Source: a bacterium (lineage in GTDB: Bacteria > Elusimicrobiota > Elusimicrobia > Elusimicrobiales > UBA9959). Taken from it: a stretch of DNA of 64,000 nucleotides. The notes beneath the pieces are model-generated. The model was not told the origin of the DNA. It saw nothing but the letters and a program-made list of their open reading frames with translations, and did no database searches. A program made the position numbers and the translations under genes. This document shows, in pieces, positions 35,613 through 56,900 of this stretch; position 1 is the first letter of the stretch; every line of letters begins with the position of its first letter. Location: assembly GCA_021786295.1 (NCBI GenBank), contig JAJYNO010000030.1, forward strand, positions 1-64,000, written 5' to 3'.

Positions 35613-35622
35613 ACTTTTCCGC

Positions 35623-38600
35623 CTACGGCCCCACATAAACGGCGTAAACGCGCCCGTCGCTGGACCCGACCGAGACGGTGTCGTTGTCGCCGTCGAAGAC
35701 CGGGTCGGCGCGCACCGGGCCCCCGGTAGCTACCGGCCAGCCCGTCCTGAGCTGGCCGGTGTTTATGTTGACCGCGTAGATATAGCCGTCGTCGCAGCCG
35801 AAATAGACGTAATCCTGGCCGGCAGGCAGGCCGGCGAAGGAGGCCGGCACCACCACCGGGCCGGTGCGGATGGCGCCGCCGGCCTGGAAAGGCCAGCCCG
35901 CGGGCTCCGTCCAGGTCTGCGTGCTAACCTTGTGCAGCAGGCCTGAGTCGTCGCCGTAATAGACGAAGCGCTCACCGTTGTCCATGACCGGCCACAGGAA
36001 GGGAGAGGAATGGCTGGGGGCCCCCGCCTGGGCCGGCGGATAGACGTGGTTGGCGCTGCCGAGGTCCAGCGGCACCGCGTACAGATAGCCGTCCGAGGAG
36101 GTGATGTACAGCTTGTTGGTCGGAGAGACCGAGGCGACGTCGCCGAACGGCGAGGAATAGATGACAGACCCCAGGGAGGCCGAGGCCACCTGCCCGCCCG
36201 TGCCGGTCCTGAACTCCACCAGCGCGCCGCTCTCGGTCCCGATCCACGAGGCGTTCACGCCCGTCCTGTCGTCCACCAGCGGGGTATTGGAGACCACGCC
36301 GGAGACGGGCAGGTCGATCCAGCCCGCACAGTCGGCGCCGGAGGCGCTCGTCTTGTCGATGCAGTGCATCGCGTTGTCCGAGGCGCCGAAGTAGAGGCTG
36401 GTGCCGGAGTCTATCAGGCCCGAGCGTATCTGCACGCCCAGCGAGCGCTTCCAGACCAGCGACGCCGAGGTCCCGTTGTCCTGCACCTTGTAGACGTCCC
36501 CGGCGTCGTCGGCGAAATAGATGTCCCCCGCGGTCCCGGCGTCGGTCGGGTTGGAGTTTATCGGTGACAGCGGCGAAGTGGCGAAATCCCAGAGCAGGAG
36601 GCCGCCCGGAGAGAGCGCGCGGAGATGCCCGTCCGTGGAGGCGGCGTAGATGCGCGGCGACAGCGAGGTCCCGTCGTAGGACGTGGCCATCGTATTTATG
36701 GCGGCGGAGGAGGGCGTGATGTACGGCCAGGTGGAGCCGGCCGGGGGCAGCGCCGGCGCTATAAGGGTGACCGAGTCCGTCCGCACGTCGGCCGAGGGCG
36801 AGAAGTCCTGCGCCAGCAGGTCCGGCCCGTCAGCGATCACGGCCGAAGCCGGGGACAGGGAGGCCAGGAAGGTGTCCGGGCTGGCCGCCGAGGCGCCGGC
36901 CGTGGATTCCAGGACCAGGAAGAAAGTGGAGGTAGAAGCGGCCGGCACCGAGGCCTCGGAGAGGTACTGCTGGGAGACCGTCAGCGTGGAGAAGCCCAGC
37001 GCGTCCACCGAGATGGAGTTCATGGGCACGTAGGCGGCGGTGGTCACGTCCAGGGCCGGCTCGTAGACGCCGGCGTAGCCGTTGGAGTCGCGCACCAGCA
37101 TCACGGCGTTGAAGAGCGAGCGCGCGGCAGCCTGGGTCAGCGGGTTCAGGGCGGGGTCCAGCAGCCGGAACGTGACCGTGGCGAGCTCTATGGGGTTGAA
37201 GCCGGCCGGGCTGTTGTTGGAGACGTCCAGTCTGATCACGGCGGCGCGGGAGGCGTCGTTCATCCAGCGCGGGGCGTCCGTGCTGGCCGTGACCGCCTGC
37301 ACGCTGGCGTCGTACGTCACGGTATCCAGCACTATCGGCGGCGCGGAGGCCGTGCCGGTGCTGGAGTTGAGTATCATCCGGTAAGAGGCGCTGGAGACCA
37401 GCGGGCTGCCGTCCTGATCGTAGAAGGCGTAGCCGGTCTGGGCCGTGGTCTGGCGCGTCAGGGCGGAGAGGTCGAAGCCGATGTCGGCCAGGCGGTAGAG
37501 GTGCGGGGAATGCAGGTCCGCGCTCCCGCCGGTCCTTTCGAAGACGATGTTGTTGCCGCCGCCGGAGGAGGCCGCCCCGAGCGCGAGCGAGAGCCCGAAC
37601 CTGCGGGAAAGATAGCGCGGCGCCGAGTTGTCGCCCGGCAGGTAGAGGGTATCAGGCGCCGCCGTGCCGGCGCCGTTGTTGCGGGAGGCCGGAGTGACGA
37701 ACGCGGAGACGTAGAAGTCGGCGGCGTCGTTGCCGGTATCGGCCCCCTCAGTCGGGCCGCGGGCGATCGACGTGGCGGCGCCGGCCGGGGCGTGGGACGG
37801 ATAGTCGGTCAGCGCGCCCTTGTAGTTGTAGCGCGAGTAGGCGGCGCCGGACTGCCAGGTGACCATGTCCACCGTGGAACCCGTGGAGTTCTCCAGCGCC
37901 AGGAAATCCCCTGCGGGGGACGGGCCGGCGGCCCCGAAGACGTCGGCGAAGGTCTTGCCGTCGTCGCCGACCGAGGAATAGTCCAGCAGCGCGTAGTCCA
38001 GCGGGTAGATCTTCCTGGTGAACCGGAAGACCGCGCCGTTCTGCGACGAGACCGAGTCGCGCAGGGAATAGCCGGCCAGCGTGCGCGTGGAGACCGGGGA
38101 GGAGTTATAGAGCTCGACGAACTGCCTCCCGGCTGAATAGCCCACCTCGTTTATCAGCAGCGAGTCCGTGGAGACGGAGTTGGAATAACCCTTGGTCGGC
38201 GTAGGGTCTATCTCGAAGTACGGGTTGCCGTCGGTTATCCTGGCGAACGACTCGCCCAGGGACATGACGCCGGGGCCCGGCCACTGCACCTGGTCCGCCG
38301 CGGCGCCGGCAGGGTTGACCAGGCTGACATAGTAGCTCTGCGCGCCGTTCAGGGCCACCGGCAGGTTCGTTATGGTGAAGGTGGAATAGGCGTTTATCAC
38401 GGCGCCGGCCTGCCCGGTCCACAGCGTGTTGGCCGAGCCGCCGATGTCTATCGTGCTCTCCACGTAGTTCAGCTTCCAGCCGGCCAGCGACGGGGTGCTG
38501 GAGGTGTTGTTGTAGAGCTCCACCCAGTCGTCCGCGGCGGCGGCGCCGGTGGGATAGACCTCGTTTATCTGCACCGGGGCCGGCACCAGGACCTGCGGAT

Positions 38601-41600
38601 AGACCGTGTAGCCCTCCAGCTGCACGCCGGTGTCCTTCACCAGCCGCAGACAGTAGACCGCGCCCGGGGTGAGGCCGTTGTCCTTCAGCGAGAAATCCCA
38701 CATGCCGTCCTCGCCGCGCGGGATGGCCGCGACGGTATTGGTGGAATTGTTCTGCTCCACGTAGGTCTGGTCGATGGTTATATGGGTGCCGTATCTGGGG
38801 TCGTTCGCGTCCGCGGTCAGCGGCGTGTTGTCCGCCACGGACGGATTATTGTTGAAGGCCAGCGCCGTGGTGGACGTGACGTCCGTATAGGCCGCGGGGG
38901 TCCCGTTGGACGGGGCGGCGCAGGTGCCGTCTCCCATGCCGGCGAACTGCAGCCTGAAGCCCTGGCCGTTCAGCGGCAGGTCCACGTTGCCTATGTCCAC
39001 CAGCTGCCTCAGCCTGAAGGCCGAGCCGGCCGAGGGAAGAGTGGCCAGCGTGTCCTGGGCCGCCAGCGGAGCGCCCACGTCCGTTGAATCGGAGTCGGCG
39101 AAGACCCGGTAGGCGCTCTGGTCGAAGGTGGTGGTGGGCGGGGCGGGCCAGAACTCGAAGGAGTCCCCGGCCACCGCCGCCGAAGACAGGCTGGTCTCCA
39201 GCGCGGCCCCGCCGTCGGCGTCGCTCCAGGTGAAGGTCCCGGCGGAGTTCATTATCACCCTCTTGCCGAAAAGGTCGTAATTGGAATCGGCCACGGCCGC
39301 GATAGCCCTGTCGCGGTTCACGGGGTCCTGGCGCATGGAATAGCGGACCTGCGGACTGGCGAAGGCCGGCGTAGGGGAGAAGGCGGTCTGCTTCGTGAAG
39401 GTCCCGCCGCTGCCGGTTATCCACCCGAGAGTGGTGCTGTTGGCGTTGTCGTAGGTTATCACGCTGCGCGTGACGGTGCCGGAGCTCAGCCAGGCGGCGG
39501 CCACCAGCCTGGTGCCGGCCTGCGGCTTCTGCGCGGTGGTGACCAGGCCGGCCGTGTCCGTCCACGCCGAGCCGTTCCAGTAGCCGGCCTGCAGGTAGCC
39601 CCTGGAGTTGCCTATGGAGGCGAAGACCATCTCGCTGCTGGCCGGGTTGGCCGCCAGCGTCAGGTTGGTGGCGTCGTCGGTGAACGTAGGCGGCGTAGCG
39701 GGCGCGCTCCACGTGTGCAGCGGGCTCCCTCCGGTCCAGACGGCCCTGGCGTAGCGCACCCCGTTGGTCCCGCTGCCGCCGGAGGAGTTGGCCCAGACCA
39801 CCATGATATTGCCGGTGGTCGCCTCGTACTGCACGGCGAAGTCCTCCACGTCCTGCGCCGCCGACACGGCCTCCAGGGAGGTCTCCAGCGGCTGGGAGGG
39901 TTCGTTCTCCCACGAGGAGCCGTTCCAGACCATGGCGTCCAGGCGGGAGGCGTTGTCGGCCCAGATCGCCGCGATGTCGTTCTGGTCCGCCCTCGGGTCG
40001 GAGGCCAGTTTCACCCACTGCACTATGCCGGCGGTGTTAAGCGGGCTCAGGGAGGCGTCGGCGGACCAGCCGGACTGGCCGCAGCCCGCGGCCCCGGACT
40101 TGACCCTGTAGCCCAGCTGGGAGCTCCCCGAAACGTTGTGCGAATAAAGAACGACGGCGTCGCCGCTGTTGCTCTCGTAGGCTATGTCGAAGCGGCGGGT
40201 GGAGGCGTCCCCCCCGACGTACTGCGTCCACTCCTCCTCCCAGTTGGCCCCGTCGGAGCAGAGCACGTGCAGCGTGCCGTTGGCCACGTAGCCGGCGACG
40301 GCCTCCTGCTTGGTGGTCAGCGGGTCGGTCTTTATCACGAACAGCGAGCCCGGAATCCCGGAAAGGGTGGCCTGCACGGGGCTGAAGGAGTTGGAAGCGC
40401 CGTAGTAGTTGCGGAACTGCGGCGCGCTGTTGCCGGCCTGGCCGTACAGCAGCACGCCGTCCCCGGCGGAATGCAGCACGGGGAGGATCAGCGTCTTGAC
40501 GTAGCCGAGGCCGGTCCACGCCGTATAGCTGCCGTCGTTGTTCGCGGCCCTGACCCGGGCGTAGTAATAGGTGTTGCTGCTCAGGCCGCTGAAGGCCGCC
40601 CCCGGGCCGTAGACCGGCGCCGTGGAGAAAGTGACCTGATTTGCCGCTCCCGAGTTGAAGTCGGAGGCAGTGGAGACCTGCACCTGGTAGAGGGTGGCGC
40701 CGAGCGGGTTGGAATTGGCGTCCCAGGCAACGCTGAAGCCGTTGTCGGTCACGGCGCCGAACACCGCGCCCGGCGCGGCAGGCTGGTTGGCCAGCGTGGA
40801 AGCCGGCGGATAGGCGGCCCAGTCGCTGGCGTCCCCGGGGCCTTCGGCGCGGACGAACAGGAAGTAGGTGGTGTTGAGCGCGAGCGCCGGCTGGTAGACG
40901 GAAGCCTGCGCGGCGGCGGTCTCGCTGGACGCGTAGACCGGCGACGGGGGCGAGGCCGGGTTGACCGAGGCGGCCAGCAGATAGCCGGTGGCCCCTCCGA
41001 CTAGCGACCAGGAGGCGGTCAGGGAATAGGTGGAGACCTGCGTGACCTGCGCCGGGACGGGGGCCGGCAGCCGGAGCGTGGCGGTGGACCCCAGCTGGGC
41101 GTAGGAAGTATAGACGCCGTTGTTGTTCTGCGCGCGCAGGCGGAAATAGTAGAGGCTGCCGGAGAGCAGGCCGGAGAACGCGTACGAGGTCCCCTGCAGC
41201 GGGGCGGTCGAGGCCGTGACCTGCGCGTAAGCGCCGGGATTGAAATCGGGTGCGGTGGAAGCCTGGACCTGGTAGACGGTGCCGGCCGGGTTGGAGTTTG
41301 GCGACCAGGAGGCGGTGAAACCCTGCGAGGTGACGGCGCTGAACGTGGAGAGCGCCGTCAGCGGCGGGTTGGCCAGCGTCGAGGTGCCGGCGACAGCGGT
41401 ATAGGAGGTCTCCACCCCGTTGCGGTTGACAGCGGCCAAGGTGAAATAGCGCGTCGTGTTGGGCGCCAGGGCCGCGCCGCCGAGATAGAGGTTGTAGGTA
41501 AACGAGCTGGCCACCACGGCTCCGGAGGGGGCGAGCGGGTCCGGCGCGGTGGACGACAGGACATGGTAGAGCGTGCCCGGGTCCCGGTCGCCGTTGGCCG

Positions 41601-44600
41601 ACCAGTTGAACTGGAGCGCCGTCTCGGTCACGTTCGTGAAGCCCGCAGGAAGGGGCGGATAGGCCACCAGCGTGGCGGTCCCCTGCGCCGCGCTGTAGGC
41701 GGAAGCCACGCCGCTTATGCCCAGCGCCGCGGCGCGGAAATAATAGGTGGTGTCCGCGGACAGGCCGGAGGTGCTCAGCGAAAGGCCGTAGGTGTCGGAA
41801 CTGGTCACCGGAGCTCCCGCCGGGTTCAGCGGATCGGGAGCGGTGGAGACCAGCACCCGGTAAAGCGTCCCGGGGACCCGGTCGCCGTTGGCCGCCCAGT
41901 TGAACTGCAGCGCGGCCGCCCCCACGCCGCTGAAACCGGAGGGCAGCGGCGGATTGGCCCAGGTGGCGGTGGCCTGCGGGGCCGTGTAGTCGGTAAGCGC
42001 GCCGTCCTTGTTCACGCCGGCCACGCGGAAATAATAGGTGGTGTCGGCCGCCAGACCGGAAGCGCTCAGGGAGAGAGCGTAAGTATCGGAGGAAGCGACC
42101 GCGGCGCCGGCCGGGGAGAGCGGGTCCGGAGCCGTGGAGGAGAGCACCCTGTACAGCGTGCCCGGGTAGGCGTTCCCGTTGGCGCTCCACGAGAACACCC
42201 CCGAGGAGGCGTAGACTTCGGAGAAGCCGGAGAAGGCCGGCGGGTAGGCCAGCAGCGTCGCCCTGTGGGGGTAGGCCAGCCAGACGCCGGAGGTCCCCTG
42301 GCCGTTGGCCCGCACGAAGAGATAATACGAAGTGTCCGGCGTCAGGCCGGAGAGGGAGGCGGCGTTCTCCCCGTTGACGGTGGTGCTGGAGGCGGCTATG
42401 ACGGCAGGCGGGTCGTCCGGGGCGAGGGAGGCGGCCAGCGTGTAGCCGGTGGCGCCGGGCACCAGGTCCCACGAGGCGCTCATGGAGCTCACGAAGACCC
42501 CGGTTATGCTGCCGGCCGCGGGGCTGCCTATCTGCCCGGTGGCCAGAGTCTGCGCCTGGAACGGGGGGGCGCTCCAGGCGGTCTGGACGCCGTTATTGTT
42601 GAACGCGCTTACCCTGAAATAGTAGTAGGTGAGCGGCTCGAGACCGGCCGTGGAGACGTAAAGGTTGTAAGTATAAGCGGAGCTAACGGCGGCGCCGGAC
42701 GGGAGCAGCGGGTCCGGGGCCGTGGAGACCAGCACGTAGTAGAGCGTGCCAGGGCCGTTGCTCCCGCCCGCCCAGTTGACCTGGGCCGCCTGCGTGGTCA
42801 CGCCGGTGGAGTAAAGCCCGGACGGGGCGTTGGCCAGGGTGGAGGTGGCCGAGACAGCGGTGTAGGCGGTGGGGACCCCGTTCTTGTTGACGCCCGCCGC
42901 GGTGAAGTAATAGGTGGTGTTGCCGGCCAGCCCCTGCGAGGAGAGCGCCAGGCCGTAGGTGTAGGAGGAGAGAGCCACCGCTCCGCCCGGGTTCAGCGGG
43001 TCAGGGGCCGTGGAGGAGACGACCCTGAACAGCGTGCCCGGGTAGACGTCGCCGTTGGCGGCCCAGTTGAACTGCAAGCCGCTTTCGGTCACTCCGGAGA
43101 AGCCGGCCGGCAGCGGGGGGTAGGCCAGCAAAGTGGCCGTGCCGGCCGCCACGGTGTAGGCGGTGGCGACGCCGTTCTTGTTGACTCCGGCCACGCGGAA
43201 ATAATAGGTGGTGTCAGCGGCCAGCCCCGAGGAGCTCAGGGACAGGCTGTAGGTGTCGGAGGACGCCACCGCGGCCCCCGCAGGGTTGGCCGGGTCCGGC
43301 GCCGTGGACGACAGCACCCTGTACAGCGTGCCGGGGTAGGCGTTGCCGTTGGCGGACCAGTTGAACTGGACCGCCCCGGCCGCCACGCCCGTGAAATTGG
43401 AAAACAGCGGCGGGTAGCCCAGCAGGGTGGCCGTGCCAGCAGCCGCGGTGTAGGCGCTGGCCACGCCGTTGGCGTTGACCGCCGCCGCCCTGAAATAATA
43501 CGTGGTATCCGCCGAGAGGCCGGAGGAGCTCAGCGACAGGGCGTAGGTGTACGAGGAGGCCACCACGGCCCCGCCCGGATTGGCCGGGTCAGGCGCGGTG
43601 GACGACAGCACCTTATACAGCGTGCCCGCGGGATTGCCGGCGCCGGTCCAGCCGAACAGGACCGAGCCGGCCGTCACGCTCGAGAAGCCGGCGAAGGCCG
43701 GCTGGTAGGTCAGCGTCGCCGTGCCGGCCGCCGCGGTATAGGCGGTGGCCGCGCCGTTCTTGTTCACCCCGGCCACCCTGAAATAATACGTGGTGTTGGC
43801 GGCGAGGCCCGAGGAGCTGAGGAACAGGTTGTAGGTGTACGACGAGACCGCCACCGCCCCGCCCGGGTTCAGCGGGTCCGGGGCCGTGGACGAGACGACC
43901 TTGAAGAGCGTGCCCGGGTAGGCGTCGCCGTTGGCCGACCAGTTGAACTGGACCGAGGTCTGGCTTATGCCGGTGAAGCCGGAAGAGAGCGGCGGATAGG
44001 CCAGCAGAGTGGCCGTGCCGAGAGCGGCGGTATAGGCCGTAGGCACGTTGTTGTTGTTCACGCCGGCCACGCGGAAATAGTAGGTAGTGTCCGGGGAGAG
44101 CCCGGAGGAGCTGAGGGACAGGCTGTAGGTGTACGACGAGACCACGGCGGCGCCGCCCGGGTTCAGCGGGTCAGGCGCCGTGGAGGAGAGCACCCTGAAC
44201 AGCGTGCCCGGATAGGCGTTGCCGTTGGCCGACCAGTTGAACTGGACCGCGCCCGATCCCACGCCGGCAAACCCGGAGGCGGCCGGCGGATAGGCCAGCA
44301 GGGTCGAGGTGCCGGGATAGGCGGCCCAGGGACTGGAAAGGCCTTCCCTGCTGGAGCGGACGAACAGGTAATAGGTGGTATTGGGGGAGAGCGCCGGCAC
44401 GGAGAGCGTGGCGCCCAGGTCGCCCAGCGTGCTGCTGGAGGCGTAGACCGGCAGCGGCGGGTTCGCCGGGTTGACCGAGGCGGCCAGCGTGTAGCCGGTG
44501 GTCTCGTTCACCAGTCCCCACGAGGCGCCCAGCTGCGAGGCGCCCACGTTCGCTACGGCCGAGGTGGACGGCGAGGCCGGCGGCAGGGTCTGCAGCAGCT

Positions 44601-47600
44601 GCACCCAGGTATCCCCGGAAGCGCCGGCCGCAGGCCCGCCCACCGTCATGTAGACGCTCTTGCCGCTGGCGAGGTTGCCGCCCGCGGGCTCTATATGCAC
44701 CCTGACGGCCAGCCTGTCGCCGTTGGCCAGCGAGGTGGCCGAGGCCGCCGCGGTCCAGGTCTGCGCGGCCTCGGATATGCCCAGCTCGGCCACTCCCGTC
44801 TGCACCGAGGCTATCGTGGAGAGGATGTTGCCGGCGCCGTCGGCGCGCAGCAGCTCGGCCGTTATCCCGGCGTTGGCGTTGGTGGCGCTCTCCCAGGCGC
44901 GCAGGTTGAAGGTTACGTTGCCGGAGACTGAGACCGGGGCCAGCGGTCCGGTATACCAGGTCTCGGTCGGGCCGTTGGCCACTTTGGTGAACTGCGAGGC
45001 CGGGCTGGGCGGCGTGACGGTCCCGGCTGTCGCCTTGGTGTAGGTGACGGCCGCCGAACCGCGCAGCGTGGAGAGCACCCTGTCCTCGTTGGCGTCGGGG
45101 TTCGCGGTGGAGGTGGAATCCAGCAGGAAGAGCTTCGTCACGGCCTGCAGCGTGCGGGTGGACTGCGCGGCCATGTAAGCCGTGGCGACGCCGTTGTTGT
45201 TCACCCCGGCCGCGGTGAAATAGTACTGGACGTTGGTGGCCAGCCCGGAGGTGGTCAGGGAGAGGCTGTAGGTGTCGGAGGAGCTGACGACGGCCCCGGC
45301 CGGGTTCAGAGGGTCGGGCGCGGTGGAGACCAGCACCCTGTACATGGCGCCGGCCGGATTGCCGTTGGCCGTCCAGACGAACCGGAGGGAATCCGTCTGC
45401 AGATCGGTAAAGCCCGAGAAGGCCGGCGGATAGGCCAGCAGCGTGGAGGTGGCCGCCGGGGCAGTGTAGGCGCTAAGCGCGCCGTCCGTGTTCTCTCCGG
45501 CCAGCCGGAAATAATAGGTGGTGTCGGAGTAGAGCCCTGAGGTGCTGAAGCTCAGGCCGTAGACGTCCGAGGCGGTGACCGCCGCGCCGCCGGGGTTAAG
45601 CGGGTCCGGAGCGGTGGAAGCCAGCACCCGGTAAAGGCCGGGAGAGTTGTTCCCGTTGGGCAGCCAGTTCAGCGTCAGCGAAGAGGCCGAAACTCCGAAG
45701 GACGAGAAGAGCGGCGGATAGGCGAGCGTCCTGAACTGCTGGGAGGCCGTATAGGAAGTGAGGTCCCCGCTCCGGCCGGCCGCGGCGGCCCGGAAATAGT
45801 ACAGCGTGTCGGGGGAAAGGGAGGAGGCTGTCAGCGCCAGACTGTAAGTGTCCGAGGAGACGACCTGGGCGCCCTGCGGGGTCAGCGGGTTGGGGGCCGT
45901 GGACAGCAGGACCCGGTACAGGGTGCCGGCGGGGTTCCCGTCTGCCGACCAGGTCAGGGAGGCCGAGGAGGCCCAGACCGCCGCCGCCGCTGGGGAGAGC
46001 GGCACGGCCGCCAGCGTGGCCGTGGCCTGCGGCGCCGCGTAGGCCGTCGCCGTCCCGCCGCCGTTCACCGCCGCGGCGGCGAAGTAATAGGTGGTGTTGG
46101 GAGAAAGCCCGGAGGAACTCAGCACCAGGCTGTAGGTGTCGGACGAGCTGGAGACCGCGCCGCCGGGGTTAAGCGGGTCCGGGGCCGTGGACGACACTAC
46201 GCGGTAAAGCGTGCCGGAAGGGTTCCCGCCGGCCGAGAAGGCGAAGTCGGCGGAATTAGCGGAGAGATTGGCGAAACCCGAGAAGACCGGCTGCGCGGCC
46301 AGCGTATACGTGCCGGAGGGGACGGTCCAGGCCGTGGCGGCGCCGTCCTTGTTTATGCCCGCCGCCGTGAAGTAGTACGGCGTATTCGGGATAAGGCTGG
46401 CGGAGGTAAGGGAGACGCCGTAGGTGTCGGAGGAACTGGCCACGGCCCCCCCGGGGTTCAGCGGGTCCGGGGCCGTGGAGGAGAGCACCCTGAACAGCGT
46501 GCCCGGGTAGGCGTTCCCGTTGGCCGACCAGGAGAAGGAGACCTGCGACGCGGAAACGCCGCCGACGGCCGGGGAGGCCGGCGGGTAGGCCAGCAGCGTG
46601 GCGGCGGAAGGGTAGTCGGACCAGGCGCTGCTGCCGCCGGGACCGTTGGCCCGGACGAACAGATAATACCGCGTATCCGGGGAAAGGCCGGGCACCGAAG
46701 CGGAAAGCGCCCCGGCGGTATCGGAGGAAGAGATTATCGGGAACGGCTCCGCGCCAGTGCTGGAAGAGGCGGCGAGGGTGTAGCCGGTGGCCCCGCCCAC
46801 CAGCAGCCAGCTCGCCGTCATCGAGGAGATGTGCGGCGTCAGCGACATGGCCACCGGGGCGGCCAGGAAACCGGCCTGCAGCGTGGGCGTGGAGGCGGCC
46901 GCGGACCAGGCGCTGTAGACGCCGCCGTTGTTGCGGGCCCTCACGACGAAACCGTAGTAGGCGTTCTGGGTCAGGCCGGAGGTGGTGACGTAGAGGTTGT
47001 AGGTGTCCTGGGAGGAGACGGCCGCCCCTGCCGGATTGAGCGGGTCAGCCGCGGTAGAGACCAGCACGGTGTACAGCGTGCCGGGACCGTTGGTTTGCGC
47101 CCAGTCCATCCTTATGGAGTCGGAGCTGACGCCGGTGAAGTCCAGCCCGGAGGGCGCGGCCGCCAGCGTCGAGGTGGCCGCGGCCGCGCTGTAGGCGGTC
47201 GGAACGCCGTCCTTGTTCACCCCGGCCGCCGCGAAATAATAGGTGGTATTGCCGAAGAGGCCAGCCGAGCTCAGGTAACTGTTATAGGTGTCCGAAGAGG
47301 TCGCGGAAGCCGCACCCGGGTTCAGCGGGTCCGGCGCGGTGGAGACCGCCACCCGGAAAAGCGTGCCGGGATAGGCGTCCCCGTTCGGGGAGAAGTTGAA
47401 CTGCACTCCGGTTTCTGAGACGCCGGAAAAAGAGGAGAAGACCGGGGCGTAGGCCAGCAGCGTATGCAGCGTCTGGGCCGGGGTGTACTGGCTCTCGACG
47501 CCGTTGTTGTTGACGGCGGCCGCGCTGAAAGAATAGGCGGTGTCCGGGACGAGCCCGGAGCTGCTGAGCGAAAGGGAATAGGTATCGGAGGAGGTTACCG

Positions 47601-49275
47601 CGGCGCCGGCCGGGTTCAAAGGGTCGGGGGCCGTCGAGACCTTTATCCTGTACAATGTGCCGGCCGGGTTCACCGGGTCCGTGAACGAGAACTGCAGCGA
47701 ATAGGGGCCGGCCCCCGTTATCAGCCCGGAAGCGGGCGCGTCGGCCAGAGTCGAGGTGGCCGCCGCCGCGGAAAAGGCGGACTCCACCCCGTCGGCGTTC
47801 ACGGCAGCCGCCCTGAAATAATAGGTGGTATTGAGCGAGAGCGAAGAGGTGCTGAGGGACAGCCCGTAGACCCCGTGCTGCGTGACGGCCGCGGCGCCCG
47901 GTGAGAGCGGGTCCGGCGCGGTGGAGACCAGAACGCTGTAGAGGGTCCCGCTGGGATTGCCGGAGGCGGACCAGCTGAACCTCATGTCCGCGTCGGTCAC
48001 GGCGGTGAAGCCGGCCGGCGCCGGCACGGCCGCGAGGGTATGGGTGGACTGCGCGGCGGTGTAGGCCGTGACCGCGCCGGCGTAGTTTACAGCGGCCACG
48101 CGGAAATAATAGGCGCTATTGGGCGACAGGCCGGACGTGCTCAGGTAAGTGTTGTAGGTATCGGAGGAGGTCACGGCGGCTCCGGCGGGGGCGAGCGGGT
48201 CCGGCGCGGTGGAGACGTAGACGCGGTAAAGGGTGCCGGCGTGGTTGCCGTTGGCGGCCCAGTTGAAGCGCATCGAGGAGGCGGCCATGCCGTCGAAGTA
48301 GCCCGCGCCGGGAGCGTAAGCCAGCGTGACCGCGGCCGGCCAGGCGGCCCACGAGCTGGAGGTCCCGGAGCCGTTTGTCCGGGCGAAGAGGTAGTAGGTG
48401 GTGTCCGGGCTGAGGGGGCTGACCGCGGCGGAGGGGCCGGCGGAGTCGAACGAGGAGACCACCGTGGACATGCCGGCGTCCAGGGCGGCGGCCAGCGTGT
48501 AGCCGGTGGCCCCGTCCACCAGGCCCCACGAGGGCGTAAGAGAGGTCTGGGCGGCGGTCACGGCCCCAGTGGAAGGATGGGCCGGGGCCAGCGTCTCCGT
48601 CGTCAGCACCCAGGCGTCCCCGTCGGCGCCGGCCGTCGGGCCGTTGAGGTCCGAGGTGACGGTATAGCCGGACCTCATGTTGCTCGTCCCGCCGTCGTCT
48701 ATGTGCAGCCGCACGGCCAGCCGCTGGCCGTTGGCCAGCTGGACCAGCAGCGGCGTCACCTGCCAGTTCTGCAGGGCGGCAGTGGTCCCGAGCTTCGCCC
48801 GCCCGGTGGCTACGGCCGCTATGGTCGAGAGGATATTGCCGGAACCGTCGGCCTGCAGGAGCTCGGCCGTGATCGTGGAGTTTGACTTGGTATTGTTGGT
48901 GTAGGCCCAGAGATTGAAGGTGACGTTGCCCGAGATGGCGACCGCGTCCAGCGGATAGGAATACCAGGTCACCACGCTGCCCCCGGCGGTCTTGGTGAAC
49001 TGCGTGGCCGCGGTAGGCGGCGTCACAGGTCCGGCGGTCGTGTTCTTGACGTAGGAGAGCATCCCCACCCCTTGAAAAGGGTCCAGCTGCATGTACAGGT
49101 CGGTACCGGGGCTGACGGAGGCGGCGGAGTCGTGCAGGTAAAGCGCGGAGGCGGCCAGCGGAGGCGGCGCGGCGCAGAACAGCAGGCCCAGCGCCAGCGG
49201 CAGGACGGCGGAAAGGGCGCGGCGCGCCGCGCGCCCGCCCATCCTCCCCGCGTTTCCGTCTTCCCGCCGGTACAT
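35623..49275 (-). CDS. Giant secreted FN3-repeat/lamin-tail/propeller protein
   Basis: A protein of 4550 residues and 13.65 kb, about a fifth of the window. After a signal peptide (LPLALGLLFCAAPPPLAAS) comes a beta-rich domain (about 45-220) that recurs near 1380-1540. Five FN3-like units of type B (GATGYTLAAS...YYLFVRANG) and about 21 of type A (VSTAPDPLNPAGA...TTYYFRAAAVN) fill residues 220-2925. A propeller-like region follows (about 2930-3300), then two lamin-tail domains (INEVYPTGAAAADDWVELYN near 3565, INEVGYSAGRQFVELYN near 3707), and a C-terminal PQQ-like propeller (4180-4550). No sortase, type-IX or autotransporter signal is seen at its end. It follows the Rrf2 gene by 17 bp. A surface adhesin or sheath role is inference. 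Confidence 0.85.
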   Translation of the reverse strand: MYRREDGNAGRMGGRAARRALSAVLPLALGLLFCAAPPPLAASALYLHDSAASVSPGTDLYMQLDPFQGVGMLSYVKNTTAGPVTPPTAATQFTKTAGGSVVTWYSYPLDAVAISGNVTFNLWAYTNNTKSNSTITAELLQADGSGNILSTIAAVATGRAKLGTTAALQNWQVTPLLVQLANGQRLAVRLHIDDGGTSNMRSGYTVTSDLNGPTAGADGDAWVLTTETLAPAHPSTGAVTAAQTSLTPSWGLVDGATGYTLAAALDAGMSTVVSSFDSAGPSAAVSPLSPDTTYYLFARTNGSGTSSSWAAWPAAVTLAYAPGAGYFDGMAASSMRFNWAANGNHAGTLYRVYVSTAPDPLAPAGAAVTSSDTYNTYLSTSGLSPNSAYYFRVAAVNYAGAVTAYTAAQSTHTLAAVPAPAGFTAVTDADMRFSWSASGNPSGTLYSVLVSTAPDPLSPGAAAVTQHGVYGLSLSTSSLSLNTTYYFRAAAVNADGVESAFSAAAATSTLADAPASGLITGAGPYSLQFSFTDPVNPAGTLYRIKVSTAPDPLNPAGAAVTSSDTYSLSLSSSGLVPDTAYSFSAAAVNNNGVESQYTPAQTLHTLLAYAPVFSSFSGVSETGVQFNFSPNGDAYPGTLFRVAVSTAPDPLNPGAASATSSDTYNSYLSSAGLFGNTTYYFAAAGVNKDGVPTAYSAAAATSTLAAAPSGLDFTGVSSDSIRMDWAQTNGPGTLYTVLVSTAADPLNPAGAAVSSQDTYNLYVTTSGLTQNAYYGFVVRARNNGGVYSAWSAAASTPTLQAGFLAAPVAMSLTPHISSMTASWLLVGGATGYTLAASSSTGAEPFPIISSSDTAGALSASVPGLSPDTRYYLFVRANGPGGSSAWSDYPSAATLLAYPPASPAVGGVSASQVSFSWSANGNAYPGTLFRVLSSTAPDPLNPGGAVASSSDTYGVSLTSASLIPNTPYYFTAAGINKDGAATAWTVPSGTYTLAAQPVFSGFANLSANSADFAFSAGGNPSGTLYRVVSSTAPDPLNPGGAVSSSSDTYSLVLSSSGLSPNTTYYFAAAAVNGGGTATAYAAPQATATLAAVPLSPAAAAVWASSASLTWSADGNPAGTLYRVLLSTAPNPLTPQGAQVVSSDTYSLALTASSLSPDTLYYFRAAAAGRSGDLTSYTASQQFRTLAYPPLFSSFGVSASSLTLNWLPNGNNSPGLYRVLASTAPDPLNPGGAAVTASDVYGLSFSTSGLYSDTTYYFRLAGENTDGALSAYTAPAATSTLLAYPPAFSGFTDLQTDSLRFVWTANGNPAGAMYRVLVSTAPDPLNPAGAVVSSSDTYSLSLTTSGLATNVQYYFTAAGVNNNGVATAYMAAQSTRTLQAVTKLFLLDSTSTANPDANEDRVLSTLRGSAAVTYTKATAGTVTPPSPASQFTKVANGPTETWYTGPLAPVSVSGNVTFNLRAWESATNANAGITAELLRADGAGNILSTIASVQTGVAELGISEAAQTWTAAASATSLANGDRLAVRVHIEPAGGNLASGKSVYMTVGGPAAGASGDTWVQLLQTLPPASPSTSAVANVGASQLGASWGLVNETTGYTLAASVNPANPPLPVYASSSTLGDLGATLSVPALSPNTTYYLFVRSSREGLSSPWAAYPGTSTLLAYPPAASGFAGVGSGAVQFNWSANGNAYPGTLFRVLSSTAPDPLNPGGAAVVSSYTYSLSLSSSGLSPDTTYYFRVAGVNNNNVPTAYTAALGTATLLAYPPLSSGFTGISQTSVQFNWSANGDAYPGTLFKVVSSTAPDPLNPGGAVAVSSYTYNLFLSSSGLAANTTYYFRVAGVNKNGAATAYTAAAGTATLTYQPAFAGFSSVTAGSVLFGWTGAGNPAGTLYKVLSSTAPDPANPGGAVVASSYTYALSLSSSGLSADTTYYFRAAAVNANGVASAYTAAAGTATLLGYPPLFSNFTGVAAGAVQFNWSANGNAYPGTLYRVLSSTAPDPANPAGAAVASSDTYSLSLSSSGLAADTTYYFRVAGVNKNGVATAYTVAAGTATLLAYPPLPAGFSGVTESGLQFNWAANGDVYPGTLFRVVSSTAPDPLNPGGAVALSSYTYGLALSSQGLAGNTTYYFTAAGVNKNGVPTAYTAVSATSTLANAPSGLYSTGVTTQAAQVNWAGGSNGPGTLYYVLVSTAPDPLLPSGAAVSSAYTYNLYVSTAGLEPLTYYYFRVSAFNNNGVQTAWSAPPFQAQTLATGQIGSPAAGSITGVFVSSMSASWDLVPGATGYTLAASLAPDDPPAVIAASSTTVNGENAASLSGLTPDTSYYLFVRANGQGTSGVWLAYPHRATLLAYPPAFSGFSEVYASSGVFSWSANGNAYPGTLYRVLSSTAPDPLSPAGAAVASSDTYALSLSASGLAADTTYYFRVAGVNKDGALTDYTAPQATATWANPPLPSGFSGVGAAALQFNWAANGDRVPGTLYRVLVSTAPDPLNPAGAPVTSSDTYGLSLSTSGLSADTTYYFRAAALGISGVASAYSAAQGTATLVAYPPLPAGFTNVTETALQFNWSANGDRDPGTLYHVLSSTAPDPLAPSGAVVASSFTYNLYLGGAALAPNTTRYFTLAAVNRNGVETSYTAVAGTSTLANPPLTALSTFSAVTSQGFTASWSPNSNPAGTVYQVQASTAPDFNPGAYAQVTASTAPLQGTSYAFSGLLSGSLYYFRLRAQNNNGVYTSYAQLGSTATLRLPAPVPAQVTQVSTYSLTASWSLVGGATGYLLAASVNPASPPSPVYASSETAAAQASVYQPALALNTTYFLFVRAEGPGDASDWAAYPPASTLANQPAAPGAVFGAVTDNGFSVAWDANSNPLGATLYQVQVSTASDFNSGAANQVTFSTAPVYGPGAAFSGLSSNTYYYARVRAANNDGSYTAWTGLGYVKTLILPVLHSAGDGVLLYGQAGNSAPQFRNYYGASNSFSPVQATLSGIPGSLFVIKTDPLTTKQEAVAGYVANGTLHVLCSDGANWEEEWTQYVGGDASTRRFDIAYESNSGDAVVLYSHNVSGSSQLGYRVKSGAAGCGQSGWSADASLSPLNTAGIVQWVKLASDPRADQNDIAAIWADNASRLDAMVWNGSSWENEPSQPLETSLEAVSAAQDVEDFAVQYEATTGNIMVVWANSSGGSGTNGVRYARAVWTGGSPLHTWSAPATPPTFTDDATNLTLAANPASSEMVFASIGNSRGYLQAGYWNGSAWTDTAGLVTTAQKPQAGTRLVAAAWLSSGTVTRSVITYDNANSTTLGWITGSGGTFTKQTAFSPTPAFASPQVRYSMRQDPVNRDRAIAAVADSNYDLFGKRVIMNSAGTFTWSDADGGAALETSLSSAAVAGDSFEFWPAPPTTTFDQSAYRVFADSDSTDVGAPLAAQDTLATLPSAGSAFRLRQLVDIGNVDLPLNGQGFRLQFAGMGDGTCAAPSNGTPAAYTDVTSTTALAFNNNPSVADNTPLTADANDPRYGTHITIDQTYVEQNNSTNTVAAIPRGEDGMWDFSLKDNGLTPGAVYCLRLVKDTGVQLEGYTVYPQVLVPAPVQINEVYPTGAAAADDWVELYNNTSSTPSLAGWKLNYVESTIDIGGSANTLWTGQAGAVINAYSTFTITNLPVALNGAQSYYVSLVNPAGAAADQVQWPGPGVMSLGESFARITDGNPYFEIDPTPTKGYSNSVSTDSLLINEVGYSAGRQFVELYNSSPVSTRTLAGYSLRDSVSSQNGAVFRFTRKIYPLDYALLDYSSVGDDGKTFADVFGAAGPSPAGDFLALENSTGSTVDMVTWQSGAAYSRYNYKGALTDYPSHAPAGAATSIARGPTEGADTGNDAADFYVSAFVTPASRNNGAGTAAPDTLYLPGDNSAPRYLSRRFGLSLALGAASSGGGNNIVFERTGGSADLHSPHLYRLADIGFDLSALTRQTTAQTGYAFYDQDGSPLVSSASYRMILNSSTGTASAPPIVLDTVTYDASVQAVTASTDAPRWMNDASRAAVIRLDVSNNSPAGFNPIELATVTFRLLDPALNPLTQAAARSLFNAVMLVRDSNGYAGVYEPALDVTTAAYVPMNSISVDALGFSTLTVSQQYLSEASVPAASTSTFFLVLESTAGASAASPDTFLASLSPASAVIADGPDLLAQDFSPSADVRTDSVTLIAPALPPAGSTWPYITPSSAAINTMATSYDGTSLSPRIYAASTDGHLRALSPGGLLLWDFATSPLSPINSNPTDAGTAGDIYFADDAGDVYKVQDNGTSASLVWKRSLGVQIRSGLIDSGTSLYFGASDNAMHCIDKTSASGADCAGWIDLPVSGVVSNTPLVDDRTGVNASWIGTESGALVEFRTGTGGQVASASLGSVIYSSPFGDVASVSPTNKLYITSSDGYLYAVPLDLGSANHVYPPAQAGAPSHSSPFLWPVMDNGERFVYYGDDSGLLHKVSTQTWTEPAGWPFQAGGAIRTGPVVVPASFAGLPAGQDYVYFGCDDGYIYAVNINTGQLRTGWPVATGGPVRADPVFDGDNDTVSVGSSDGRVYAVYVGP
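40500..48600 (-). repeat. Tandem FN3-coding DNA repeats
   Basis: About 26 repeat units of roughly 240-290 bp, each coding one FN3-like domain. Neighbouring units, especially at 43000-44300, share long stretches coding SSTAPDPLNPGGA and DTTYYFRVAGVNKNG, which suggests recent duplication or gene conversion. Assembly collapse or copy-number change is likely here. Confidence 0.85.
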
Positions 49276-49292: not shown

Positions 49293-49709
49293 TCACGGCG
49301 CGTCCGCCGTCTTCCCGCCCCCGCCCTGGCGCTCCTCTTGGCGCGCGCTCTCTATTATGTCCTGCACGGTCAGGCCCACCAGCCAATGATTGACCTCGGC
49401 GCGCAGCGTCTCGTAGAGCTTGTTCGGCACCTGCGCCCTCTCCGACTTCGGCGCCCCGTTGAAGGTGAAGGCCTCCATCAGCTGCCAGACGCTGATGTCG
49501 TCCAGGTCTTTCGCCAGCCTGTAGCCCCGGCCTTTCTGCGACTCCACGAAACCGGCGTGGACCAGGGCCTGCAGCACCTTGGTGCAGTAAGGCGAGGGGA
49601 GGCCCTGGAAGCGCGAAATGTCCGCCACCTGGTTCCAGCTCCCGCCGTCGTTCTGTCCCAGGTAGTGCAGGCAGGCCAGTCCGTACGCCAGGGTCCTGTT
49701 CATCCGCAT
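49293..49709 (-). CDS. Rrf2-family transcriptional regulator
   Basis: A winged-helix regulator of 138 residues, starting MRMNRTLAYGLACLHYL, the usual Rrf2 opening, with the recognition region GSWNQVADISRFQGLPSPYCTKVLQAL and wing GFVESQKGRGYRLAK. Only two Cys are present (13 and 42) and they are not in the C-terminal cluster position of IscR or NsrR, so an Fe-S cluster of that type is unlikely. The start at 49709 is chosen for the conserved N-terminus and the GAGG site; a longer frame lacks conservation. It is 17 bp before the giant FN3 gene and has two palindromes upstream. Confidence 0.88.
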   Translation of the reverse strand: MRMNRTLAYGLACLHYLGQNDGGSWNQVADISRFQGLPSPYCTKVLQALVHAGFVESQKGRGYRLAKDLDDISVWQLMEAFTFNGAPKSERAQVPNKLYETLRAEVNHWLVGLTVQDIIESARQEERQGGGGKTADAP

Positions 49710-49878: not shown

Positions 49879-50916
49879 CTATTTGCCGGCCGCGGCGCGC
49901 AGTACTGAAGCGGCCTCGCAGGTTCGAGGCGGAGGCTTCAGCGGGTCCCCGGTCTCCAGCAGGTTCAACCCCGGACAAAGGCCGCAATACCCGGCGTCCT
50001 TGCAGCCGGCGCAGCCCCTCAGGTCCTTTCCCGACAGGCCGCGCCAGCGTTCCAGCCAGGCGGAATCCCTCCAGAGCGCCGGGAAAGACCGCCGGGCGAG
50101 GTTCCCCAGCTTTACCGGCAGCTGCAGGCATGGATAGAGCTCCCCGGAAGGACCCACGGCGCAGACGTTGCGTCCGGCGCCGCATATAAAGCCCTCCTGG
50201 AAGCCCTCTTCCGGGGTTTTCTCCGGTCCTTTGGCCCCGCCGTAGACCTGCCTTACCGCCCGCCTGAGCGCCGCGCCGGAAAGCCGGTATCCCAGGGCGG
50301 CCCCGTCGCCGTCGTTCCCGGGCGCGATGGAAAGATCGAAGGAGATGGAAAAACCCTCCAGGGCCGCCAGCCTTTTCAGGCGGCCGGCCTGGCCCGCGTT
50401 CAGCGTCATCAGCGGCGTCTTCATCTTCACCGCCACGCCTTTCATTTTCAACAGGCGGGCGGCGGCCAGGCTGCGGGCGAACGCCCCCCTTACGCCGGTC
50501 ACGCGGTCATGGACCGCGGGGGAGCCGTAGAAACTCATCTCGAAAGCCGACACGCCGGCCTCTTTCAGCTCCGCGGCCAGCTCCGGAGTCAGGCCGTGCC
50601 CGGTGGAGAAGACCCTGACGTCGAACCTCAGTTCCCCGGCGTGGCGGCACAGTTCGGCCAGGTCCGGCCGGAGCAGAGGCTCCCCCCCTGTAAAGACCAG
50701 GTACAGCCCGCCGGCGGCGGCCAGGCCGGACAGTATCCTTTTCCACTCGGCCGTAGGCAGCTCCGGCGGCCTCGCGGCGCGGCCGCGGGTCTCCGGCAGA
50801 TAGCAGTGCAGGCAGGAAAGCGGACAGCGCCGGGTAAGCTCCGCGGTGACCAGGACCGGGACGCAGCGGGAAAGGCTCAGCGCGTTGAGCCTGGCGGAAG
50901 GGGCGCCTTCACTCAT
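49879..50916 (-). CDS. Radical SAM/SPASM peptide-modifying enzyme
   Basis: A 345-residue enzyme with the radical SAM motif CPLSCLHC near residue 35, the SAM-binding GGEPLL near 77, and a C-terminal SPASM region rich in Cys: ICGAGRNVCAVGPSGELYPCLQL and GCAGCKDAGYCGLCPGLN, enough to bind auxiliary Fe-S clusters. This architecture is typical of maturases for ribosomally made peptides (sactipeptide, PqqE or quinone-cofactor types) and of anaerobic sulfatase maturases. The neighbours (PqqD, 45-residue Cys peptide, peptidase, HprK-like kinase) favour a peptide substrate. The start overlaps the peptidase gene by 8 bp. A longer upstream reading of the frame was rejected. Confidence 0.88.
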   Translation of the reverse strand: MSEGAPSARLNALSLSRCVPVLVTAELTRRCPLSCLHCYLPETRGRAARPPELPTAEWKRILSGLAAAGGLYLVFTGGEPLLRPDLAELCRHAGELRFDVRVFSTGHGLTPELAAELKEAGVSAFEMSFYGSPAVHDRVTGVRGAFARSLAAARLLKMKGVAVKMKTPLMTLNAGQAGRLKRLAALEGFSISFDLSIAPGNDGDGAALGYRLSGAALRRAVRQVYGGAKGPEKTPEEGFQEGFICGAGRNVCAVGPSGELYPCLQLPVKLGNLARRSFPALWRDSAWLERWRGLSGKDLRGCAGCKDAGYCGLCPGLNLLETGDPLKPPPRTCEAASVLRAAAGK

Positions 50917-51232
50917 GCCGGAAAACCCTGGAAAGGGCACGGCGCAGCCTGGAATAGAAGAGGCCCGGCAGCCCCCCAGACAGCGGCCCGCCCAGCGCCC
51001 GGCCGCGCACGTCCCCCCAGGGGACGAAGTGCGGCACCAGCCGTCCGGCGTCGTCGCCGAACCAGGCTCCGTCGCCCGAAGCGCGCAGCACGCGGTGAAG
51101 CAGCTCGCGGCCCCTCCAGGAATAGACGGCGCAGTCGCCGGGCCGGGGTCTGGCCGCGCGGACGAGCGCGACCCCCCCCGGTCTGAAGACCGGCAGCATG
51201 CTGGACCCCTCCAGTCTGAACGCCCGCGGCAT
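50909..51232 (-). CDS. S24/S26-like peptidase (Ser-His type)
   Basis: A small protein of 107 residues: MPRAFRLEGSSMLPVFRPGGVALV has the Ser11-containing GSSM motif of S24/S26 peptidases. RPGDCAVYSWRGRELLHRVL and WFGDDAGR match the HR and GD boxes of Ser-His signal peptidases (SipW/Sec11-like), with His in place of the usual Lys. There is no obvious membrane anchor. It starts 1 bp after the precursor stop (TAGCATG), so its synthesis is coupled to the precursor's. A role in cutting the peptide leader is inferred. Confidence 0.75.
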   Translation of the reverse strand: MPRAFRLEGSSMLPVFRPGGVALVRAARPRPGDCAVYSWRGRELLHRVLRASGDGAWFGDDAGRLVPHFVPWGDVRGRALGGPLSGGLPGLFYSRLRRALSRVFRHE

Positions 51233-51233
51233 G

Positions 51234-51371
51234 CTAGGAGGCCTTCTTGAGGCTCTTGCAGGCCAGCTGGCCTATGGGGCCGGCGACGCACTTGCCGCAC
51301 GCCAGCGCGGCCGTCTCGAACACCTTTTCCGTCTTCAACGAGGGCTTCTCGTACCTTTTCTTTTTCTTCAT
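51234..51371 (-). CDS. Putative RiPP precursor peptide (45 residues, three Cys)
   Basis: A short frame of 45 codons between the pqqD-like and peptidase genes. The peptide begins MKKKKRYEKPSLKTEKVFE, like leader regions recognised by PqqD-type RREs (YEKPxL...EKVFE), followed by TAALACGKCVAGPIGQLACK with Cys25, Cys28 and Cys38, and ends SLKKAS. The Gly/Ala/Cys-rich half looks like a core for thioether crosslinks. The context on both sides, coupling to the peptidase (1-bp gap) and strand all support expression. It would not be called by an ORF cut-off of 60 residues. Confidence 0.75.
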   Translation of the reverse strand: MKKKKRYEKPSLKTEKVFETAALACGKCVAGPIGQLACKSLKKAS

Positions 51372-51398
51372 ATCCGATCCTTGGCGCCGGGGCGCGGT

Positions 51399-51659
51399 TC
51401 AGGCCGCGGAGACCAGGCCCGCCTTTCTGAGCTCCTCCACGAACGCGTCGTAATCCGCGCCGGCCGTCCCCTCGTCGACCTCGAACTCGGCCGTCAGCCC
51501 CCGCACCACGGCGGCCCTGCCGCGGCCGGCGGCCAGCCCCTCCCAGATAACGGCGGCCGGGCCATTGAGCTCGTGCAGGCGGGAAGAAGCCGCGTCGACG
51601 ATGAACACTTCCCCGGCGAGGCGCCTGTAGGCCAGGCCCCCTTTTATTCTCAGTCCCAT
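51399..51659 (-). CDS. PqqD-family peptide chaperone (RRE domain)
   Basis: An 86-residue protein of the PqqD family, which binds precursor leaders and presents them to radical SAM enzymes. GLAYRRLAGEVFIVDAASSRLHELNGPAAVIWEGLAAG is the typical first half (three beta strands then a helix); EFEVDEGTAGADYDAFVEELRKAGLV is the helical second half. The ATG at 51659 is chosen with GAGGGG upstream. It lies 10 bp after the HprK-like gene and 27 bp before the precursor. Confidence 0.9.
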   Translation of the reverse strand: MGLRIKGGLAYRRLAGEVFIVDAASSRLHELNGPAAVIWEGLAAGRGRAAVVRGLTAEFEVDEGTAGADYDAFVEELRKAGLVSAA

Positions 51660-51669
51660 GGTATGCCCC

Positions 51670-52500
51670 TCATACGATAAGTTCCAGAAAAGAGGCGTCC
51701 CGGTCCGAGAACTCCAGGACCCGGAAGGGCGAACCGGAAAGCAGGCCGGACGCCGCGTCCATTGCCCGCCCGCCGGCGGCAGCGCTCCTTTCAAAGTTCA
51801 GCAGGCAGCGCAGCAGCGGAGGCAGCGCCTCCGGGCCGCCGCACGCCGAAACCCGGTTGGCGCGGGCCTTCCTCAGCAAAAAGACCCCGCCCAGCGGCCA
51901 GGAGCCACGGCGCCCTTCGGAGCGCATCTCCCCCCAGAAAGGGGAGCCGTAGGCGCGCCATCGGCCGTTCTCCCGGCGCAGCATATTTATCTCGTCGCTG
52001 ACGACCTCCGCCGAGCCGGAAGCGCCGGCCAGCCTGGAAAGGGTGGATTTGCCGGCGCCGGACCTGCCCAGGAAAACATAGGCGCGGCCGTTCTTCACCA
52101 GGCCGGCGGAATGCAGCATAAGGCCGCCGGAGCGCAGCAGCAGGGCGCTCAGCAGGGAGCGCAGAAAAGCGTCCAGGCTCTGCTCCCGCGGCGAGGCCAG
52201 CAGCGTCCCGGAACCGGCCGCGGTGTCCAGCGAGGCCCCGAAATCCCCACGGCTCAGCCTCAGCCGCCGTCCCGCCCAGAGAACGGAAGGTCTGAAAGGG
52301 GCCTGCCGCCCCGGAGCCGCGGACACGGAGAAGGAGTAGTCCGCGCCCCCGCCGCCGGCGAAGCGGCCGTACCGCCGCCGCAATAGGGAAATGATACCTG
52401 CGGAGTCCGATTCAAAACCCAACCCGATCCCGCCCACCTCCAGGTTCAGGGAGCGGGACCGCCCGGGGGCCTGTCCGGTCAGGGCAGCGTCGAGGGCCAC
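51670..52500 (-). CDS. HprK-related kinase of a RiPP-type cluster
   Basis: The C-terminal half resembles HPr kinase: MLHSAGLVKNGRAYVFLGRSGAGKSTLSRLAG with Walker A GRSGAGKS, then EVVSDEINMLRR and AYGSPFWGE. The N-terminal half (LNLEVGGIGLGFESDSAGIISLLRRRYGRF) is as seen in HprK-related proteins of peptide clusters. In some lasso-peptide clusters such kinases phosphorylate the precursor's C-terminal serine. The true HprK is encoded separately at 27812-28777. The start is uncertain: GTG at 52500, ATG at 52521 or GTG at 52437 are possible, none with a good ribosome site. It overlaps the pseudopilin gene, implying cotranscription with it. Confidence 0.8.
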   Translation of the reverse strand: MALDAALTGQAPGRSRSLNLEVGGIGLGFESDSAGIISLLRRRYGRFAGGGGADYSFSVSAAPGRQAPFRPSVLWAGRRLRLSRGDFGASLDTAAGSGTLLASPREQSLDAFLRSLLSALLLRSGGLMLHSAGLVKNGRAYVFLGRSGAGKSTLSRLAGASGSAEVVSDEINMLRRENGRWRAYGSPFWGEMRSEGRRGSWPLGGVFLLRKARANRVSACGGPEALPPLLRCLLNFERSAAAGGRAMDAASGLLSGSPFRVLEFSDRDASFLELIV

Positions 52501-56814: not shown

Positions 56815-56900
56815 CTTACCCTGACCCCTCCGCCAGTATAGCATACAAAAGAGGTTCGATAAACCGCGAGGAAAATGTCGGACCCCTGCCGTATAAACCC

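Follow-up and report, generated by a model that had tools for sequence, protein, structure and literature searches.

A conserved Elusimicrobiota operon for a candidate radical SAM-modified peptide, co-inherited with giant propeller proteins

Ribosomally synthesized and post-translationally modified peptides (RiPPs) of the lasso, pyrroloquinoline quinone (PQQ) and, in some cases, sactipeptide types share YxxP as the motif bound by their RiPP recognition elements (RREs; PMC12710340, PMC10368454). PqqE, a radical S-adenosylmethionine (SAM)/SPASM enzyme, has no RRE of its own and is served in trans by PqqD (PMC8326336), and discrete lasso-type RREs adjoining radical SAM enzymes have already been noted (PMC7470986). 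The kinases PadeK and ThcoK phosphorylate the C-terminal Ser of a lasso precursor (PMC9266682), and HprK-like lasso kinases can also target Ser3 (PMC10368454). Here we describe a five-gene operon that joins elements of these systems. It lies in a 64,000-nucleotide stretch (hereafter the window; contig JAJYNO010000030.1 of assembly GCA_021786295.1) from a 2.3-Mb Elusimicrobiota draft metagenome-assembled genome (MAG) of 37 contigs.

We consider it very probable that this cassette is a RiPP system: a conserved precursor gene with a leader motif lies beside an RRE and a modifying enzyme. The probable product is a peptide modified by the radical SAM enzyme under the guidance of PqqD and trimmed to ~21 residues, most likely serving giant propeller proteins encoded nearby.

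The operon and its precursor peptide

The operon is encoded on the minus strand in the order HprK-like kinase, PqqD, peptide, S26-like peptidase and radical SAM/SPASM enzyme:

51670..52500, minus strand: HprK/PEPCK-fold kinase-like protein, ~276 aa (uncertain start, taken as the GTG at 52500)
51399..51659, minus strand: PqqD-family RRE protein, 86 aa (Pfam PF05402)
51234..51371, minus strand: precursor peptide, 45 aa (kept in 29 of 30 loci, three Cys invariant)
51300-51371, minus strand: probable leader, residues 1-24 (boundary inferred from the A-L-A|C motif)
51237-51299, minus strand: probable core, residues 25-45, with C-terminal Ser45 (boundary from the same motif)
50909..51232, minus strand: S26/S24-like Ser-His peptidase, 107 aa (weak Pfam S24, nucleophile and His, AlphaFold2 (AF2) fold)
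49879..50916, minus strand: radical SAM/SPASM enzyme, 345 aa (exceeds the PF04055 and PF13186 cut-offs)

Along the operon the genes are separated by 10, 27 and 1 nucleotides and the last two overlap by 8 nucleotides. An earlier note on the window had described this order, strand and close spacing, and all frames were found where it placed them. It had also proposed that the 45-codon frame is an overlooked precursor with a leader-like half, and this peptide (MKKKKRYEKPSLKTEKVFETAALACGKCVAGPIGQLACKSLKKAS, carrying Cys25, Cys28 and Cys38) proved to be real. Its gene is directly upstream of the S26-like gene in 29/30 loci, these being the loci read around S26 matches within the class, the window's own included; the remaining locus is truncated by a contig end. 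The homologues preceding S26 share 67-84% identity and 18 invariant columns, all three Cys among these. In a 25-sequence alignment the invariant columns include K9-P10, E15, F18-E19, A21-A22-L23-A24-C25, C28, C38 and S45. Raw pN/pS of the peptide gene within the class is ~0.20, with pS near saturation, and together with the conservation this rules out a chance or spurious open reading frame. Loss of the frame or of its Cys in relatives that keep the enzymes, which the earlier note had named as grounds for giving up its proposal, was not seen; both are retained. The peptide has no matches in NCBIfam, and its Pfam and PDB matches are at chance level only.

The N-terminal half is K-rich and contains the motif YxKPx(L/I/M/V). 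Y7, K9 and P10 are invariant in the 25-sequence alignment and position 12 is hydrophobic, as in the lasso-type YxxPxL leader. The leader ends in EKVFETAALAC, and in the 63 sequences compared the residue at -3 from the first Cys is Ala in 62 and that at -1 is Ala or Gly in all. AxA is a pattern cut by signal peptidases. The core, C-x2-C-x(9-11)-C, is 20-23 residues long (mostly 21) with three Cys in 63/63, and the C-terminal residue of the precursor is Ser in 62/63. The peptide is usually single-copy in the window's phylum. Elsewhere, several scattered copies per genome, each with different neighbours, were seen at L197, L199, L200 and L083 (genomes G341 and G343; L and G numbers denote loci and genomes throughout), and the L200 copy ends in PQY in place of Ser.

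Enzymes and predicted maturation

PqqD is predicted to bind the YxKPxL leader of the precursor. The protein matches PF05402 at 51.8 bits, over the cut-off; its best NCBIfam model is lasso_PqqD (45 bits, under cut-off) and its best PDB match is the TfuB1 lasso RRE (6jx3), and the PqqD_rel_X model scores 20 of the 35 bits required. A second PqqD of the genome (L001) was set aside: it adjoins an acyltransferase-like gene and a radical SAM gene other than the one described here, with no such peptide. That region (L001, 469-2778 of G000:C27), where the second PqqD accompanies a malonyl-transferase-like gene, may be another peptide or polyketide cluster.

The radical SAM/SPASM enzyme would modify the core around the three invariant Cys, forming a thioether or another crosslink. 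Its CX3CX2C motif and six SPASM Cys are invariant. SkfB and PqqE tie as the two best PDB matches; among NCBIfam models AhbD, PqqE and NirJ2 tie, all far under cut-off, and MftC (mycofactocin) is similarly close. The sactisynthase models are likewise under their curated cut-offs (SkfB 55 of 300, StsB 55 of 625, AlbA 44 of 850), as is the model of the ranthipeptide PapB-type maturase (42 of 340). Because scores tie among families and lie far below cut-offs, the reaction cannot be named. A Cys-based crosslink of some kind is probable. The sactipeptide or ranthipeptide thioether put forward in the earlier note is compatible with these matches without being established by them, the enzyme being equally near PqqE, AhbD, NirJ and MftC, and we regard a true sactionine or ranthionine as a tentative assignment.

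The S26-like peptidase would cut after Ala-Leu-Ala, releasing a ~21-residue product that begins with Cys. Position 11, the nucleophile, is Ser in 41 and Cys in 7 of 51 sequences, and His46 is invariant. An AF2 model (pLDDT 92) has the LexA/signal-peptidase fold (Foldseek probability 1.0), so that nucleophile, His and fold are all those of S26/S24 peptidases, and Pfam S24 is over the cut-off in an Armatimonadota homologue (L188). Leader removal by this protein, as in the earlier note, would fit both the fold and the A-x-A before Cys25, and we give a cut near Ala24/Cys25 an even chance. The Ser/Cys swap occurs naturally in this family, with a Cys nucleophile (GGCMRP) in L086, L090, L093, L134, L135, L136 and L139.

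The HprK-like enzyme would phosphorylate the peptide; the conserved Ser at the C terminus is a possible site. The protein matches ScmC, HprK_rel_B and HprK_rel_A of NCBIfam at 27-31 bits, under cut-off, and His137, Lys158 (P-loop), Asp176 and Glu177 are invariant. Its AF2 model (pLDDT 91) has a PEPCK fold (VIA Z 14); the 50 VIA matches listed are filled by PEPCK chains, with no HprK structures among them. Phosphorylation of the C-terminal Ser is a serious candidate, at slightly less than even chances.

Co-inheritance across two phyla and the propeller proteins

That the genes form an operon, are conserved and are inherited jointly can be read directly from the genomes. The peptide was found in 56/341 genomes of the window's phylum, two of them doubtful (54/341 without these). 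An exact degenerate-pattern scan of 84,980 species returned 41 peptide loci, in Elusimicrobiota or unnamed-phylum MAGs plus one Armatimonadota MAG. Within Armatimonadota, 11/201 genomes encode the peptide (E 1e-18 or better), many of them in an S26-PqqD-peptide operon (L188-L195). All 11 also have the HprK-like gene, mostly at other loci. A radical SAM orthologue of full length (192-222 bits, 36-40% identity) is present in 10 of them, in most cases unlinked. Of the 190 peptide-free genomes, only 5 have an HprK-like match and 3 a radical SAM match with such bit scores. Contamination as the source of the Armatimonadota peptide is ruled out, since it occurs in 11 genomes with orthologous enzymes. 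Because Armatimonadota keep the kinase (11/11) and the radical SAM enzyme (10/11) mostly unlinked, we conclude that peptide and enzymes form one co-inherited system. Together with the conservation of the peptide, this strongly supports the earlier note's view of a RiPP-type cassette.

HprK-PqqD-radical SAM cassettes that are more distantly related lie at L234, L236, L238, L239, L240, L241, L242 and L246, and some of them include S26. Five of these (L236, L238, L241, L242 and L246) pair with other Cys-bearing YxxP precursors, for example:

L241, 6603-6788: Cys-containing YxxP peptide
L238, 7320-7571: Cys-containing YxxP peptide
L246, 3362-3694: Cys-containing YxxP peptide

The present system is therefore a single well-conserved branch within this wider group of cassettes.

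In addition to the lasso-like leader, PqqD and kinase features, the analysis goes beyond the earlier note in tying the cassette to giant propeller proteins and in adding the flanking genes:

52479-53735, 53735-54241 and 54235-56844, minus strand: three prepilin-like genes (N_methyl motif in two of three), upstream, conserved in the class
49293..49709, minus strand: Rrf2-family regulator (PF02082, 67.5 bits)
35623..49275, minus strand: giant secreted fibronectin-III (FN3) repeat protein, 4550 aa, ending in a BamB/PQQ-like beta-propeller (35626-36645)
32412..35636, minus strand: second secreted PQQ-like beta-propeller protein, 1074 aa (PF13360, 103 bits), with a C-terminal tail of the type IX secretion system (T9SS) type

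Within the class the cassette sits between the prepilin-like genes and the Rrf2 and giant FN3 genes. The giant gene overlaps the second propeller gene by 14 nucleotides, and throughout the phylum both genes co-occur with the cassette. PF13360 occurs in just three genes of the window's genome, two of them at this locus. In other classes the giant gene directly follows S26, and in L124, L125 and L129 S26 is the N-terminal domain of the giant protein. Rrf2 is conserved in the class and accompanies the giant gene, next to it or close by, also where the cassette has another location (L165, L166); the window's Rrf2 has no Cys in the region that usually holds the IscR cluster. The Por_Secre_tail match of the second propeller protein (19.8 bits) is under the Pfam cut-off. 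A PorV/UPF0164-like outer-membrane protein (30890-32383, minus strand) adjoins this T9SS-tailed protein, which hints at type IX-like secretion in the phylum.

Across the 341 genomes of the phylum, 50 have both peptide and propeller, 4 the peptide only, 8 the propeller only and 279 neither, so that propellers occur in 50/54 peptide genomes versus 8/287 others (p 1.7e-46). With the window's own family excluded, the same four counts are 16, 2, 4 and 261 (p 1.4e-20). Five of the eight propeller-only cases (G105, G140, G146, G158 and G337) end at contig edges; in G140, a 99%-identical sister, the cassette merely seems to be missing, since the contig there starts at the Rrf2 gene. The leading hypothesis, to which we give about as much weight as to all others combined, is that the peptide works with the propeller proteins: the product is near-invariant, usually single-copy, co-inherited with propellers and has no obvious genes for export or immunity in its conserved neighbourhood, and thus most likely serves these proteins rather than being a variable antibiotic. 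It might be their ligand, their prosthetic group or a factor in their maturation. A more specific proposal, which we hold to be less likely than not, is that a ribosomal peptide, crosslinked by the radical SAM enzyme and probably phosphorylated, forms a dedicated component of the giant secreted beta-propeller proteins, as ligand, as prosthetic group or as maturation tag, and that this arrangement is conserved in two or more phyla. No invariant Cys that could be an attachment point was found in the few propeller sequences inspected by eye.

The strongest alternative, plausible though short of even odds, is that peptide and propeller share ancestral synteny only, the role of the peptide being unrelated to propellers. 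The propeller usually adjoins the peptide cassette, and the two may simply have been lost or kept jointly. Against this, both are retained in G107 and G109, where they are clearly unlinked, each deep in a different contig; S26 is fused to the N-terminus of the giant protein in the three loci named above; and the propeller adjoins the peptide in the second phylum too, the peptide gene directly following a prepilin-propeller pair at L083 and L196 of the Armatimonadota.

A secreted antimicrobial or signal of the sactipeptide/ranthipeptide type, with thioethers from Cys to neighbouring residues and the leader removed by S26 at export, would account for the joint presence of a radical SAM/SPASM enzyme, RRE and Cys peptide, for SkfB among the best PDB matches and for the nearby Rrf2 gene. 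It is unlikely: the core is nearly invariant over two phyla, unlike bacteriocins, the conserved neighbourhood lacks exporter and immunity genes, the AlbA and PapB scores fall far short of their cut-offs, and the genes are dispersed in Armatimonadota. Still less probable is a peptide-derived redox cofactor like PQQ or mycofactocin, used by the propellers. The proximity of the radical SAM enzyme to PqqE, AhbD, NirJ and MftC models, the use of PqqD in trans as in PQQ synthesis and the co-inherited PQQ-like propellers all point that way, but the propellers are closer to BamB and other structural PQQ-like proteins than to quinoprotein dehydrogenases (88 vs 44-46 bits), the core has no conserved Glu-x3-Tyr or Val-Tyr, and a conserved C-terminal Ser and a kinase are foreign to such pathways. 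A regulator, or a small protein that binds metal or Fe-S (CxxC...C), with PqqD merely its chaperone, would suit the invariant Cys, the Rrf2 neighbour and the very slow evolution, and is the least probable reading given the lasso-type YxxP leader with RRE, the AxA site and adjoining peptidase gene in the window's phylum, and the co-inheritance of radical SAM enzyme and kinase, which extends to unlinked loci.

Several observations weigh against a modified peptide that serves the propellers. Contig ends do not account for all of the 4 peptide-only and 8 propeller-only genomes, and no export route was found for the peptide, whereas the propeller proteins are secreted. The Fisher tests, among them those for co-occurrence with the peptide in Armatimonadota (p ~1e-14 for the HprK-like and ~1e-13 for the radical SAM gene), ignore shared ancestry. 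S26 family matches are weak in the window's genome (weak Pfam S24), and the Foldseek E-value for the fold is only 4e-3. The HprK-like protein has Asp-Glu in place of the Asp-Asp that closes the His-Lys-Asp-Asp motif of PadeK-type lasso kinases. Just two of the five precursors of the distant cassettes have a terminal Ser, so the kinase target may be another residue. The chemistry of each step and the role are inferred.

Comparison with known systems

RiPP precursors usually vary fast. A ~21-residue core that is near-fixed over two phyla, with enzymes kept together across the genome though their genes are scattered, suggests that the product has a physiological role, as PQQ and mycofactocin do. 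Its link with giant surface propellers would give these almost wholly uncultured phyla a first function that can be put to the test, and if it is true this would be a RiPP with a structural or housekeeping role at the surface instead of a secreted antibiotic or free cofactor. No description of such a gene set was found in the literature searched, nor any paper there linking Elusimicrobia with radical SAM and RiPP, linking SPASM with HPr kinase, or naming SynChlorMet.

The names of the NCBIfam cassettes SynChlorMet, HPr-rel-A and GeoRSP likewise join radical SAM/SPASM enzymes to proteins like HprK, PqqD or both, but every member scores far under its curated cut-off here (ScmC 31 of 125, ScmE 88 of 400, ScmF 60 of 400, GeoRSP radical SAM 104 of 400). 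Sactipeptide and ranthipeptide systems share the radical SAM/SPASM enzyme, RRE and Cys-containing precursor; they differ in that the enzyme here is under all family cut-offs, a kinase and S26 are added and the precursor is almost invariant. PQQ biosynthesis (PqqA/PqqD/PqqE) is alike in its radical SAM/SPASM enzyme with PqqD in trans, and PqqE is among the best models. In contrast, no other pqq genes were seen in this operon, the Glu-x3-Tyr core is missing, kinase and S26 are present, and the core would be kept as a 21-residue peptide.

The phosphorylated lasso peptides (paeninodin PadeK/ThcoK) resemble the system in their YxxP leader, separate PqqD-type RRE, HprK-like kinase and precursor C-terminal Ser (PMC9266682, PMC10368454). 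The lasso B2 transglutaminase-type protease and the asparagine-synthetase-like cyclase are absent from the operon and the conserved neighbour clusters, the rest of the genome not having been scanned. Unlike those lasso systems, the operon adds a radical SAM/SPASM enzyme and an S26 peptidase to a Cys-bearing core. The set thus unites radical SAM chemistry and a leader protease resembling signal peptidases with the recognition and kinase logic of lasso systems.

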